From contig JAFVBR010000022.1 of the NCBI GenBank assembly GCA_017479885.1, forward strand, positions 1-34,554: a DNA stretch of 34,554 bases, given 5' to 3'. Below, piece after piece: positions 11,715 to 27,780 of the stretch. The first letter of the stretch is position 1. Every line of letters starts with the position of its first letter. The notes beneath the pieces are model-generated. The model saw nothing but the letters and a program-made list of their open reading frames with translations. It was not told where the DNA came from and made no database searches. Both the position numbers and the translations under genes were made by a program. The DNA is from Paludibacteraceae bacterium. GTDB taxonomy: Bacteria; Bacteroidota; Bacteroidia; Bacteroidales; Paludibacteraceae.

Positions 11715-12776
11715 ATGAAAAAACATTTCTATATCTTTGTACTTTGTACATTGTCCCTTTGTATGTTCTTCGGTTGCAGCACTAACGAGCCTGCGCAGCC
11801 GAAGGAGTATTTCACCCTCTGGAACCAATGCGAGGCGCTGACCGCTTTGCAGACATACGTGGAGGATGTGACGAACCCTAACTCCCCGAACTATATTGAG
11901 GCAAGCGACCGCATCGCTACCTTTGACATGGACGGCACCTTCATCGGCGAGTTGTACCCCACCTATTTTGAATACAACCTATTAGAGTACCGCGTATTAG
12001 ACGACACGGCTTACCGCGACAAAGCGCCTGAGGACGTCCGCCATACGGCACAAGAGATACGCGATTTTGTGCGCAACGGCACCAAGTTGCCGGACCATTT
12101 CGATATGAAGCATGCCCACGCAGCTGCCAAGGCGTATGCCGGCATGACGCTCGCTCAGTTCGACCGTTATGTCAAAGCCTACGCCGCCCGACCGGCTAAC
12201 GGCTTTGCTGGCATGACGTATGGGCAGAGTTTCTACAAGCCTATGCTGCAGGTGTTCGACTATCTGGCGGCGAACGGCTTCACCTATTATGTCGTCTCCG
12301 GCTCCGACCGCTTCATCTGCCGCGCCTTGACGGAGAGTATCGGCATTGCGCCCAACCGCGTCATCGGCATGGATGTGCGCCTGCAGTCAAGCGCACAGGG
12401 CACCGAAGCAGGCGTCAACTATACCATGGGCAAAGAGGAGGATATCATCCGCACGGACGAACTACTTATCAAGAACCTGAAGACCAACAAGGTGCTGCAG
12501 ATTGCGCAGGAGATAGGCAAAGTGCCGGTGCTGTCGTTCGGCAACAGCGGAGGCGACTGCGCCATGCATAACTACTGCCTGGGCAACACGGCGCACAAGA
12601 CGCTTGCCTTCATGCTCATTGCCGATGACGACGAGCGCGACCATGCCAACCGCGACAAGGCTCTCCAACTCGGCGACCAGTGGCGCGAAGCAGGCTATCA
12701 GGTCATCTCCATGCATGACGATTTCAAGACCATCTACGGCAGCGGCGTCGAGAAAACAGAATTCGTGTTTGAATAA
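11715..12776 (+). CDS. HAD-superfamily phosphatase lipoprotein
   Basis: The protein has 353 residues and a lipoprotein signal peptide ending FFGC (Cys21). Haloacid-dehalogenase motifs are complete: motif I FDMDGT (nucleophile Asp71, Asp73), motif II VVSGSD (Ser195), a Lys region around NLKTNK (253-259), and motif IV FGNSGGD (276-281). A helical cap of about 100 residues lies between motifs I and II. The enzyme is predicted to be a Mg-dependent phosphomonoesterase acting outside the inner membrane; the substrate is unknown. It resembles phosphoserine or phosphorylcholine phosphatase-like HADs in layout, but specificity cannot be assigned. The signal peptide is partly encoded by a CTTTGTA heptamer repeat. 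Gaps to its neighbours are 24 and 23 bp. Confidence 0.88.
   Translation: MKKHFYIFVLCTLSLCMFFGCSTNEPAQPKEYFTLWNQCEALTALQTYVEDVTNPNSPNYIEASDRIATFDMDGTFIGELYPTYFEYNLLEYRVLDDTAYRDKAPEDVRHTAQEIRDFVRNGTKLPDHFDMKHAHAAAKAYAGMTLAQFDRYVKAYAARPANGFAGMTYGQSFYKPMLQVFDYLAANGFTYYVVSGSDRFICRALTESIGIAPNRVIGMDVRLQSSAQGTEAGVNYTMGKEEDIIRTDELLIKNLKTNKVLQIAQEIGKVPVLSFGNSGGDCAMHNYCLGNTAHKTLAFMLIADDDERDHANRDKALQLGDQWREAGYQVISMHDDFKTIYGSGVEKTEFVFE
11735..11763 (+). repeat. 7-bp tandem repeat CTTTGTA in the HAD signal peptide
   Basis: CTTTGTA occurs at 11735-11741 and 11742-11748. A degenerate CATTGTC follows (11749-11755), then one extra C and CTTTGTA again (11757-11763). It encodes the hydrophobic core FVLCTLSLCM of the lipoprotein signal peptide. 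Confidence 0.7.
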
Positions 12777-12799
12777 ACAATGACAACCAAAATGATTAT

Positions 12800-13540
12800 A
12801 TGAAAAAGACATCACATTTTCTCTTTATCCTTTGCTGCTGCGCAGTGTTGGCAGCATGCAAGAAGGAGGAGCCCGTGGACACCACGCCTCTCACGGAGTG
12901 GCAGGCAGGGCAGATCGTTTCAGAAGCTGCCGTAACGGCATACGGAGGCTTGGACAAGTGTTTTGCTGCCGAGCCTATACCTGATGGTGTGTGGGCACGC
13001 ATGCAAGGCAAGACCTACGTAGATAATCCGTACATCGGGCGGGACGACCTGCGTCATATACGCGTCTTGCATTGGGACTATGACAACAAGATGCATGTGG
13101 GTGAGATGGTTTGCAACGTTGTGATTGCCGACCGTGTGGTGCGCATCTTCCGGCAGTTGTTCGATGCCAAGTACAACATAGAGCGGATGCTGTTGCCCGA
13201 CGTATATGATGCCGACGATGAAAAGCAGATGCGCGACAACAACACGTCTTGTTTCTGCTATCGCAACATAGCCGGCAGTACCAACCTCTCTAAGCACGCA
13301 CGGGGAATAGCGATTGACATCAACACTTTCTACAACCCTTATTTCAAGGTGCGTGAGGACGGGTCACTCTTTATCCAACCCGCCACGGCAGGTGCCTATT
13401 GCAGCCGCGACTGGGATTTTCCGTACAAGATTGACCATGACGACTTGGCTTTCAAACTCTTTACAGAAGCAGGCTTTGAATGGGGTGGCGACTGGACGAC
13501 CCGCAAAGACTATCAGCATTTTGAGTTAATTGAGCAATAA
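12800..13540 (+). CDS. M15-family peptidoglycan peptidase lipoprotein
   Basis: The protein has 246 residues with lipobox LAAC (Cys20). The zinc site of M15 peptidases (VanY/CwlK type) is visible: SKHARGIAID supplies His166 and Asp173, and DYQHFE supplies His240, preceded by FEWGGDW. YRNIAGSTNLS fits the substrate-cleft strand of the M15C group. The enzyme would cut D,D- or L,D-linked stem peptides of peptidoglycan in the envelope; which bond cannot be read from the sequence. It lies two genes after the VanX-like dipeptidase, which suggests stepwise breakdown of the same peptides. The stop is 46 bp before the start chosen for the next gene. Confidence 0.88.
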   Translation: MKKTSHFLFILCCCAVLAACKKEEPVDTTPLTEWQAGQIVSEAAVTAYGGLDKCFAAEPIPDGVWARMQGKTYVDNPYIGRDDLRHIRVLHWDYDNKMHVGEMVCNVVIADRVVRIFRQLFDAKYNIERMLLPDVYDADDEKQMRDNNTSCFCYRNIAGSTNLSKHARGIAIDINTFYNPYFKVREDGSLFIQPATAGAYCSRDWDFPYKIDHDDLAFKLFTEAGFEWGGDWTTRKDYQHFELIEQ

Positions 13541-13586
13541 CTACTACGCCTACGATGAGAGTTGTGTCAGAAAGTATATAATACCT

Positions 13587-14393
13587 ATGAACAAGAAACT
13601 CACCTTTATCATTCTTCTGCTTAGTAGCAGTCTCGTTTTCTCCTCATGCAGGGAGAATACTCCGTCGCGTACCACCGTCGAACGTATTCAGCAGCGCGGC
13701 ACGCTGTTGGTGGGTACTACGGGCGACTACCGTCCGCTCTCTTATCGCGAAGAAGATGGCACGTATTGGGGTTTTGACATCGCGATAGCGGAGCAGATTG
13801 CCCGTACACTGGATGTGAGCATCACTTACGTCCCTACCTCGTGGCCCACACTCACGGCAGATGTGCAGGCTGAACCGCAGACTTTCGACCTCGCTATCGG
13901 CGGCATCACTATCACCGACACGCGCCGAGCCACGATGCGGATGAGCGATGGGTATCTCACCAACGGCAAGACTATCCTCTGCCGCATGGCTGACACCGCC
14001 CGTTTTCACTCGTTGGCGGATATAGACCAACCCGAGGTGCGCGTGATGGTTAACCCGGGCGGGCTGAACGAGCAGTTCGCCCGCGACTCGCTTACTCACG
14101 CTACGGTTATCGTCTATCAGCGCAACGAGGAGATACCTGCGCAGGTGGCTGAAGGCAACGCCGATGTGATGATTACCGAGGTGACAGAAGCACCGTGGTA
14201 TGTGCAGAACGATACCCGTTTGGCGGCACCGCTGCTGGAGCGTCCGTTCACACATGGCGAGATAGGTGTGCTGATGCGCACGGGGCAGGACGACCTGCTC
14301 GAACTCATCAACGCCCTGATTGCATCCATGAAAGCCGATGGCTCTCTCCGCACCCTTCACGCCCAATACGGCTTGGTGTATGGATATGAATAA
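13587..14393 (+). CDS. PheC-like cyclohexadienyl dehydratase / solute-binding lipoprotein
   Basis: The protein has 268 residues from ATG 13587. The longer frame from 13530 overlaps the previous gene and would bury the signal peptide. MNKKLTFIILLLSSSLVFSSC is a lipoprotein signal (Cys21). The body is a type-2 periplasmic binding fold: GTLLVGTTGDYRP, WGFDIAIAEQIA, VPTSWPTLTADV, FDLAIGGITIT and VNPGGLNEQFA. VPTSWPxL, GGI and VNPGGxNExFA match PheC, the periplasmic dehydratase that turns prephenate into phenylpyruvate and arogenate into phenylalanine, better than ordinary amino-acid receptors. The segment MITEVTEA aligns with MTDAIEA, placing Glu201 where PheC has its general acid. No ABC transporter genes are adjacent, which favours an enzyme over a receptor. 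Confidence 0.8.
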   Translation: MNKKLTFIILLLSSSLVFSSCRENTPSRTTVERIQQRGTLLVGTTGDYRPLSYREEDGTYWGFDIAIAEQIARTLDVSITYVPTSWPTLTADVQAEPQTFDLAIGGITITDTRRATMRMSDGYLTNGKTILCRMADTARFHSLADIDQPEVRVMVNPGGLNEQFARDSLTHATVIVYQRNEEIPAQVAEGNADVMITEVTEAPWYVQNDTRLAAPLLERPFTHGEIGVLMRTGQDDLLELINALIASMKADGSLRTLHAQYGLVYGYE

Positions 14394-27006: not shown

Positions 27007-27018
27007 GGTATCGGTAAT

Positions 27019-27732
27019 TCAGCCTTCAATCACTGCCTGGCGTATAGTTGCAATGGCAGTCTCCTGGTCAGGAAAATCTGCCATGTTGACCTCTTTGCCT
27101 ATATACATGCTCACAGGGGTGTGTACTGCATAGAAACGTCCTTTCGGCAACAACTCAAAACAGCCGTTAAGCGTAATGGGAATAACAGGCAGATTCAAGT
27201 CTTCGGCTATACCGAATGCACCGCGTTTGAAGCGGCCTACCTGACCGTCAGCGGTGCGGGTACCCTCAGGGAATATCACCACGCACACTCCGTCGTGAAG
27301 CACCCGTTCAGCCTGCTTGACTGTCCCCACGACCGACTTTGTCCTCCCCCGCTCAAGGAAGATATGCCCTGCCGCAGCACAAGCCGTACCGACAAAAGGT
27401 ATCTTGCGAAGTTCTTTCTTCATTATCCACTTGAAGATAACAGGCAGCCAACCGTAAATCAGAAAAACGTCGGACATAGACTGGTGGTTGCTCACAAACA
27501 CGTATGACTGACCCGGACGGATGTTCTCTGTTCCTGTAATCTCAACCGGCACAAACAACAGATAGAAGAAACTGCGCGACCAGAACTGCTGAATGCGGTG
27601 AAGCCACTCGGAGTTGCGCCAGTGAATGAATATCATGGTGGTGATGGCGGTGAAAAGCGTTATCAGTGCAAACACAGGCAAGGCGATGAACCACTGCCAA
27701 ACGATATAGAAAAACTGAAGAACTGATTTCAT
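27019..27732 (-). CDS. plsC: 1-acyl-sn-glycerol-3-phosphate acyltransferase
   Basis: The protein has 237 residues, normal for PlsC. It acylates lysophosphatidic acid at sn-2 to give phosphatidic acid at the inner membrane. A hydrophobic N-terminal segment (about 8-37) anchors it. The catalytic motif NHQSMSD (82-88) and the glycerol-phosphate-binding FPEGTR (154-159) are intact, and a PVIPITLNG block follows (about 180). It lies downstream of the adenosine-kinase-like gene on the same strand with a 53-bp gap that holds a heptamer repeat and no clear promoter, so the two are probably co-transcribed. Confidence 0.93.
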   Translation of the reverse strand: MKSVLQFFYIVWQWFIALPVFALITLFTAITTMIFIHWRNSEWLHRIQQFWSRSFFYLLFVPVEITGTENIRPGQSYVFVSNHQSMSDVFLIYGWLPVIFKWIMKKELRKIPFVGTACAAAGHIFLERGRTKSVVGTVKQAERVLHDGVCVVIFPEGTRTADGQVGRFKRGAFGIAEDLNLPVIPITLNGCFELLPKGRFYAVHTPVSMYIGKEVNMADFPDQETAIATIRQAVIEG

Positions 27733-27745
27733 TGTCTTTTTATCA

Positions 27746-27780
27746 ATTAGCTATTACCTATTAGCTATTACCTATTATCT
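27746..27780 (-). repeat. 7-bp tandem repeat between the kinase gene and plsC
   Basis: Five consecutive heptamers on the + strand: ATTAGCT, ATTACCT, ATTAGCT, ATTACCT, ATTATCT. They fill most of the 53-bp gap and end five bases from the kinase stop codon. Confidence 0.92.

Follow-up and report, generated by a model that had tools for sequence, protein, structure and literature searches.

Do short tandem arrays of different sequence and one unit length, 7 bp, come from a single generating process, and how do they reach the places where they are found? The question was raised by four loci in the first 34,554 bp of contig JAFVBR010000022.1 (118,936 bp) of a Paludibacteraceae bacterium (assembly GCA_017479885.1, 2.80 Mb in 50 contigs), a stretch that we refer to as the window. 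Among named records, the nearest are assemblies of Paludibacteraceae and Bacteroidales, most of them of rumen or gut origin. Heptamers turned out to be the commonest tandem unit length in this lineage; some of them form dispersed families, one of which is a cassette of usually 30 bp with fixed ends, and they are found in spacers and, in frame, in protein turns and linkers. The account that we consider probable as a whole is that arrays are born in 7-nt steps, that some families are copied to new sites and that arrays survive where they are tolerated. Where a handle is needed, genomes are given by G numbers and loci by L numbers.

Period-7 arrays in the window and beyond

The four arrays of the window and the protein that hosts two of them are as follows.

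11735..11763, + strand: CTTTGTA, some 3-4 heptamer copies in a short, imperfect array that includes an indel; signal peptide of a HAD-like protein
16263..16286, + strand: TTTTCAY, about 3 heptamer units, in the signal peptide of giant protein 2
24554..24583, + strand: AGTCRAA-type cassette of 30 bp, 4 heptamers plus AG, read in frame as VESQKSKVES within a linker of giant protein 2
27746..27781, - strand: five copies of AATAG(G/C)T in a 53-bp spacer, with a PfkB-family kinase gene on one side and an acyltransferase gene on the other
16161..26414, + strand: giant protein 2, 3417 residues, with Laminin_G_3 and CarboxypepD_reg domains (Pfam), host of the second and third arrays

The extents of the second and third arrays improve on those of an earlier sequence-only reading (16264-16284 and 24555-24582); the third is exactly 30 bp long, with the third position changed to G at its last unit boundary. 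The HAD-like gene spans 11715-12776 (its Pfam HAD match is weak, below the cut-off), and the spacer is flanked by the kinase gene at 27786-28784 and the acyltransferase gene at 27019-27732. Tandem Repeats Finder (TRF) reported period 7 at 11735-11763 (score 35, match 73%, indels 8%), at 24554-24583 (score 46) and at 27746-27781 (score 51, with period 14 scoring 65), and at a minimum score of 30 it gave no listing for the array at 16264. We also used a lag score that tolerates mismatches and is softer than TRF, with codon shuffles as the null for the three coding arrays and letter shuffles for the spacer. Lag 7 scored 10.5 at the N-terminus of the HAD-like protein (next best, lag 4), 9.5 at that of giant protein 2 (next score 7.5, at lag 11), 13.5 in the linker (next score 4) and 20 in the spacer (next score 3). 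At each array 0/2000 shuffles reached the observed score, so all four exceed chance, as the claim of a 7-bp period at four loci had implied. The last two are clear arrays; the first two, of about 3 units each, are short and imperfect.

One detector (score of at least 12, lower periods excluded) was run over five samples amounting to 3.38 Mb: this genome (751 kb), 80 loci of named relatives (1.41 Mb), the congeners G007 (394 kb) and G305 (398 kb), and G060 (420 kb), from another family of the same order. Tandem arrays of 5- to 11-nt units longer than chance are present in this lineage, and heptamers are the commonest, with 218 of the 385 arrays (period 5, 0; period 6, 8; period 7, 218; period 8, 32; period 9, 23; period 10, 29; period 11, 75). 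Period 7 outnumbered periods 6 and 8 in five of five samples: 33 vs 2 vs 6 arrays in this genome, 81 vs 3 vs 9 in the 80 congener loci, 34 vs 0 vs 7 in G007, 23 vs 0 vs 0 in G060, and 47 vs 3 vs 10 in G305. The common 7-nt step that the sequence-only reading had proposed, to be judged by an excess of period 7 over its neighbors, was thus supported (218 vs 8 vs 32 in all). Some of the 80 loci form near-identical sister pairs, so not every one of their 81 arrays counts as independent; L001, a duplicate of the window, was dropped, L030 was trimmed by 554 bp, and L168 was counted in both the order sample and the G060 sample. A second peak lies at periods 10 and 11, both in this genome, period 10 and not 11 in G060, and mainly period 11 in G007 and G305. 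A Markov resample, made once for the first 352 kb, contained zero arrays at the detector level, and 100 kb of Escherichia coli K-12 gave zero period-7 arrays. Other families of the order, sampled as 20 stretches of 18 genomes, had 8 period-7 arrays, all in G058 and G060, so the trait is patchy in the order.

Dispersed unit families and a 30-bp cassette

Many units recur at unlinked loci as dispersed families, a few of which dominate in each genome. In this genome the recurrent ones are GAAAC(C/T)T, AGTTGA(A/G) and AATAGNN at period 7, GTTTGACGTT at period 10, and TACGGTGATA(C/G/T) and TAATCACATAC at period 11; G007 has AGTCGA(A/T) and, at period 8, ATTTGAAG, and G060 has AAGG(A/T)TA and AACTTCCTCT. 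Unit pairs within one difference make up 25% of the period-7 pairs of this genome vs 3.5% in a letter-shuffled null, 39% vs 0.3% at period 10 and 17% vs 0 at period 11. Among evenly drawn samples of genomes (as were all our sets of 61, 151 and 247), the GAAACYT pattern matched 77 times in this genome and 1-10 times in 6/150 other congeners, TACGGTGANAN matched 47 times here and once each in 2/150, and TAATCACATAC was found once in a congener (L054), at a place that does not correspond. The 27746 array is one of six AATAGNN arrays in the sampled part of this genome. Thus, of the description of the window arrays as unrelated sequences, it stands that the four units differ from one another, and it does not stand that they are isolated, as two of them, AATAG(G/C)T at 27746 and AGTCGAA at 24554, belong to dispersed families.

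The clearest family is AGTCRAA. Its three-unit core was found in 82/151 genomes of the genus, with up to 128 matches (G305), and the same pattern read backwards gave 32 matches in 12 genomes. The four-unit pattern, searched in 247 genomes of the order, was present only in this genome (8) and G305 (55), its backwards version giving 10 matches in 2 genomes. The runs of G305 have a fixed end phase in 30/31 cases and a fixed start phase in 24/31, copies of one family not being independent in this test. The exact runs measure 30 bp (15), 23 bp (6) or 16 bp (10), none with more than 4 units, and 16/31 lie in called genes, all 16 in sense orientation, including miaB twice and hisS. Among the matches listed for nine other genomes, 90 arrays had at least 3 units, distributed as 4 units in 50, 3 units in 36, 5 units in 3 and 7 units in 1; three-unit arrays may be decayed copies. 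The preference for four units (50/90 among arrays of at least 3 units, 15/31 in G305 among those of at least 2) stands beside lengths of 16 to 130 bp in other families. The order of G and A variants is genome specific, GGGG being found in 6/9 listed four-unit arrays of G337, 1/11 listed of G029 and 0/15 of G305. The array at 24554-24583 has the length and ends of the G305 cassette and, with one difference, the variant order of two G007 arrays. Folded as DNA it showed no strong hairpin (-1.9 kcal/mol, z -1.43, with 20/200 shuffles folding equally well). Given the recurrence of units at unlinked loci and a cassette with fixed ends, copying between sites probably contributes, and the statement that the arrays do not descend from a single element could not be upheld in that form.

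Some further observations concern these families. A set of 39 viral contig stretches (L367-L405) carries (AGTCRAA)3AG in arrays of 21 to 79 bp with mostly uniform units, unlike the 30-bp cassettes of the genus. The idea that every unit has a fixed 5-nt core and two free letters was suggested by AATAGNN and is not borne out by AGTCRAA, which has its free letter inside. The 10- and 11-bp families, mostly intergenic, are as dominant as heptamers in this genome; G060 has a strong period 10 and lacks period 11. Another dispersed short element has the core AGCGAAGCGGTC or its complement GACCGCTTCGCT, sometimes joined to AGTCGAAAG, and is also found in frame in conserved genes.

L010:19684-19742, L038:6948-7024 and L022:16167-16251: period-11 arrays of this genome
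L037:14711-14829 and L035:13758-13822: period-10 arrays of this genome
L257, L259, L263, L273 and L278 (miaB loop 1), L288 (hisS), and spacers in L085 and L109: the AGCGAAGCGGTC/GACCGCTTCGCT element

Placement, turnover and in-frame peptides

The 114 period-7 arrays of this genome and the 80 loci were placed on gene calls from a home-made caller: 65 are in spacers whose flanking genes point the same way, 31 inside called genes and 10 in convergent or divergent spacers, and the 8 at stretch edges, like the edge rows in the stop and start counts, were not placed. In the same-direction spacers of four samples, arrays favor the position just after a stop codon, 51/93 lying within 12 nt of one vs 31.3 expected. 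On the start-codon side the count within 15 nt was 38/93 vs 34.0, with no excess, and a preference for positions before start codons was discarded. A strand bias was also dropped: the gene strand is A-rich in 46/61 arrays (4 ties left out), but also in 523/756 spacers. At the pfkB-acyltransferase spacer itself, inspection by eye of 32 relatives found other heptamers in L053, L060, L061, L065, L069, L070, L072 and L073, and no heptamers in the five closest relatives, L042-L046. A tRNA-Asn gene lies beside the pfkB-type gene, at 28898-28972 of the window, and the pair is kept in several relatives (blastn).

Arrays change between sister species by whole units. At four anchored arrays the lengths differ by 21 bp (L070/L069), 14 bp (L100/L091), 21 bp (L086/L089) and 7 bp (L109/L107), and several other anchored arrays are unchanged. 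L091 and L100, loci that are 93% identical, differ within a pdxB-like gene, where the former has a unit of 7 bp and the latter one of 8 bp. The variable copy number expected by the sequence-only reading was thus found as differences between sister species, with one genome compared per species.

Inside genes, a turn of a WecE-type aminotransferase (between DAAQAIDSYY and PLGG) was compared in 17 genomes. The turn has 3 residues in 4/17; in 9/17 it has 9-32 residues, and the coding DNA peaks at lag 7 (scores 8.5-56). These nine carry units of five kinds: AGTCRAA (this genome and G022), ACATNNA (G073, G007 and G012), AAATCAN (G030 and G003), CAATCAC (G027) and ACAAACY (G018). The remaining 4/17 have other inserts, three of them with a palindrome seen by eye; these, in L359, L360 and L363, are in frame and 13-27 residues long, L359 being nearly identical to L360. 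For this comparison 16/28 congeners with strong matches were taken, some since the match length hinted at an insert, so 9/17 is not a frequency. The net gains of the nine are within 3 nt of a multiple of 21 in 6/9 and an exact multiple of 7 in 0/9; the latter was given up as proof against slippage in view of the former. A prediction that genomes with AAATCAN in WecE would be rich in that unit holds for G003, with 15 matches, and weakly for G030, where the WecE array is itself one of the 4 matches, in a set with any match in 20/61 genomes; it was not retained. Elsewhere AAATCAN matched 28 times in G070, 12 in G074, 9 in G022 and 7 in G061, as pure AAATCAT in all matches listed for G074 and with a freely mixed last letter in G070, so that a single family varies in composition between genomes.

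Conserved enzymes show the same period. The lag-7 threshold was reached in 8/31 sequences at MiaB loop 1, 5/31 at MiaB loop 2 and 7/31 at the HisS loop; at these loops lags 4, 5, 6 and 8 never reached it, lag 9 did three times, lag 10 once and lag 12 twice. Conserved control segments gave 0/62 at lag 7, with lag 6 twice and lag 12 once. The loops were chosen because G305 has cassettes there, and the lag-7 count without G305 is 17/90 instead of 20/93. Genes for Mrp, GltD and AroB relatives also code in-frame heptamer peptides; in GltD, GTTTCAG units of this genome's own family are matched in position by CCAATCA units in L049. The giant-2 linker has other heptamers in 2/19 homologues, ACCAATC (G023) and ACAAATC (G030), and G072, also among the 19, has a similar peptide but no clear repeats. 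The signal-peptide array of giant protein 2 is private, a lag-7 score of at least 8 being reached in 0/15 homologues (maximum 7.0), and recurrent heptamers in these signal peptides were discarded as a feature. As for frame, the idea that three units, 21 bp, are what keeps coding copies in frame was too narrow, as in-gene arrays mostly measure 23-34 bp. The giant proteins at 2-7534 and 16161-26414 of the window are distant relatives (26% identity over part of their length), and several congeners have multiple copies.

Origin of the arrays and known systems

The account that we favor would run as follows. Arrays would be born by tandem multiplication with a strongly preferred 7-nt step (and also one of 10-11 nt), probably through misalignment of the growing strand in replication. 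Blocks of units would be copied to new sites and give rise to genome-specific dispersed families, the clearest being AGTCRAA, n heptamers plus AG and usually 30 bp. Whole units are gained or lost, and other units stand at the same place in sister species, which would reflect separate gains. Arrays survive at tolerant sites, namely spacers, often right after stop codons, and protein turns or linkers when the length fits the frame. The data show the excess of period 7, the whole-unit differences, where arrays survive and the different units at shared sites; slippage, block copying and separate gains are inferred from them. Birth, whole-unit change, tolerance-limited survival and the spread of some families are together needed to cover the data. 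The main peak would have its cause in the contact of the polymerase with 7 nt, as in the proposal of Mrázek (cited in PMC4679880 and PMC4692102), and for the second one might speculate that 10-11 nt corresponds to one helical turn.

Several results weigh against this account. No enzyme, target-site duplication or donor-recipient event was seen, no gene-content search for an enzyme having been made. Unit sharing between species is also above the null (12.4% vs 6.5%), and several unrelated period-7 units have the commoner letters in common. Families other than AGTCRAA have weaker or no end preference and reach 130 bp, and AGTCRAA-type arrays in the 39 viral contig stretches vary in length and ends, so one unit can arise more than once. 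A strict ACAAACY pattern, searched in 61 genomes, matched only the WecE array of G018 (a genome 54% complete), with its reversed control matching in 6/61; copying as the source of every array is contradicted by this unit. The WecE net gains neither require nor exclude slippage. Finally, the HisS loops of L291-L293, L295 and L301 (five species) show, by eye, heptamer periodicity at normal loop length, which is not explained by insertion alone; there the native DNA looks as if overwritten and not lengthened.

On the boldest reading, heptamer cassettes of about 30 bp with fixed ends might be moved by a dedicated copy-and-paste process, as an unusually small mobile element, so that new in-frame peptides would keep being written into conserved enzymes at the same turns and protein loops would be supplied steadily; this is possible but doubtful. 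On another reading, each array would have arisen in place from a chance duplication with a replication-set 7-nt step and no copying between loci, sharing being due to base composition and slippage preference. The whole-unit differences between sister species, the private G018 array, whose first unit resembles native codons, the WecE gains near multiples of 21 and the viral contigs, whose pure AGTCRAA-type arrays vary in length, all suit slippage alone. It is nonetheless unlikely, as it meets the recurrence of identical 11- and 10-bp units at numerous unlinked sites in one genome with hardly any in congeners, the fixed ends of AGTCRAA with a limit of four units in G305 (exceeded in 4/90 arrays listed for the nine other genomes), a genome-specific variant order and the lack of any WecE gain that is an exact multiple of 7.

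Functional readings fare worse. Tandem heptamers might be selected as binding sites of a genome-specific DNA- or RNA-binding protein, as the recurrence of free positions within units across loci and the clustering of arrays near gene ends could suggest; several unrelated families per genome, the missing excess at start codons, an A-rich strand bias no greater than that of spacers at large and the many arrays that are in-frame peptides make this improbable. We consider it marginally less probable still that unit number in signal peptides and spacers toggles genes and is selected for phase variation. Unit numbers do differ between species at some arrays, and, judging from the sequence, either signal-peptide array would go out of frame on gaining or losing one unit, 7 not being a multiple of 3. 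Yet in-gene arrays are in frame in the genomes seen, they lie in enzyme loops (MiaB and HisS) and not in surface genes only, and the giant-2 signal-peptide array is not kept in 15 homologues. An artefact of metagenome assembly would be in keeping with the named relatives, which are metagenome assemblies or uncultured isolates, but is hardly credible in view of in-frame arrays in intact conserved genes of many separately assembled genomes and of sister species that agree on arrays except for whole-unit differences.

Why 7 is favored in bacterial tandem repeats is, in the portions of the literature found, still unexplained. The genus offers a system for this question: its more than 150 related genomes allow changes of copy number, sites with differing units and sites that lack an array to be compared, also in strongly conserved protein contexts such as the WecE turn, so that competing mechanisms become testable. 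The arrays also suggest a general route by which enzymes gain loops and linkers, and in this group of gut and rumen bacteria they may keep supplying proteins with new loops.

Other bacteria are already known to have an excess of heptamers, a single dominant unit in each genome and an uneven occurrence among related genomes (PMC4679880, PMC4692102). As cited there, Mrázek and others (2007) found long simple sequence repeats (LSSRs) of 5-11 nt, with heptamers most abundant and a patchy distribution among genomes. The arrays described here resemble LSSRs in their 5- to 11-nt tandem units, the dominance of heptamers and their patchiness, and differ in the dispersed families, the fixed-end 30-bp cassette, the peak at 10-11 and the different in-frame units at the same protein loops. 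A 2025 survey likewise reports that units of 6-9 bp are enriched in prokaryotic phyla and that repeat density is high in Bacteroidota (PMC12699852). Direct repeats of TAACTGA are known from Beggiatoaceae, Cyanobacteria and some Bacteroidetes, with no known mechanism (MacGregor 2015, PMC4679880). There, too, one heptamer occupies many loci, irregularly among relatives, and other heptamers are intergenic in Bacteroidetes (PMC4679880), whereas here there are several families per genome, an excess after stops and not before starts, and frequent in-frame genic arrays; TAACTGA is the unit of none of the four window arrays, beyond which the genome was not searched for it.

The GGGNATC-type heptamers of Xanthomonas and Nostoc (Rehm 2015, PMC4692102) are dispersed arrays that prefer four units, as AGTCRAA does here and the other families, which vary in length, do not clearly do; in our case coding arrays are common and the four window arrays contain no GGG, so that the lack of G-tracts leaves no quadruplex explanation for a length of four units. 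Rickettsia palindromic elements (Ogata 2000, 2002, as presented in PMC10969869) are also small dispersed repeats in frame in unrelated protein genes. They are palindromic and about 150 bp long, while the cassette has 30 bp (16, 23 or 30 bp in G305), is heptamer-periodic and lacks a strong hairpin. The small dispersed repeats and heptameric short tandemly repeated repetitive sequences of Cyanobacteria, associated with Elhai (2008) and Mazel (1990), are reportedly also very small and have no known mobilizing enzyme. With phase-variable simple sequence repeats the arrays have in common the change of whole-unit number, seen here between sister species only. In the literature found, which covers subscription journals little, we met no account in which heptamer cassettes sit in frame at one and the same turn of a housekeeping enzyme and differ in unit from one related species to the next, and we therefore take such in-frame, same-turn heptamers with differing units as a new variation on the known heptamer excess.

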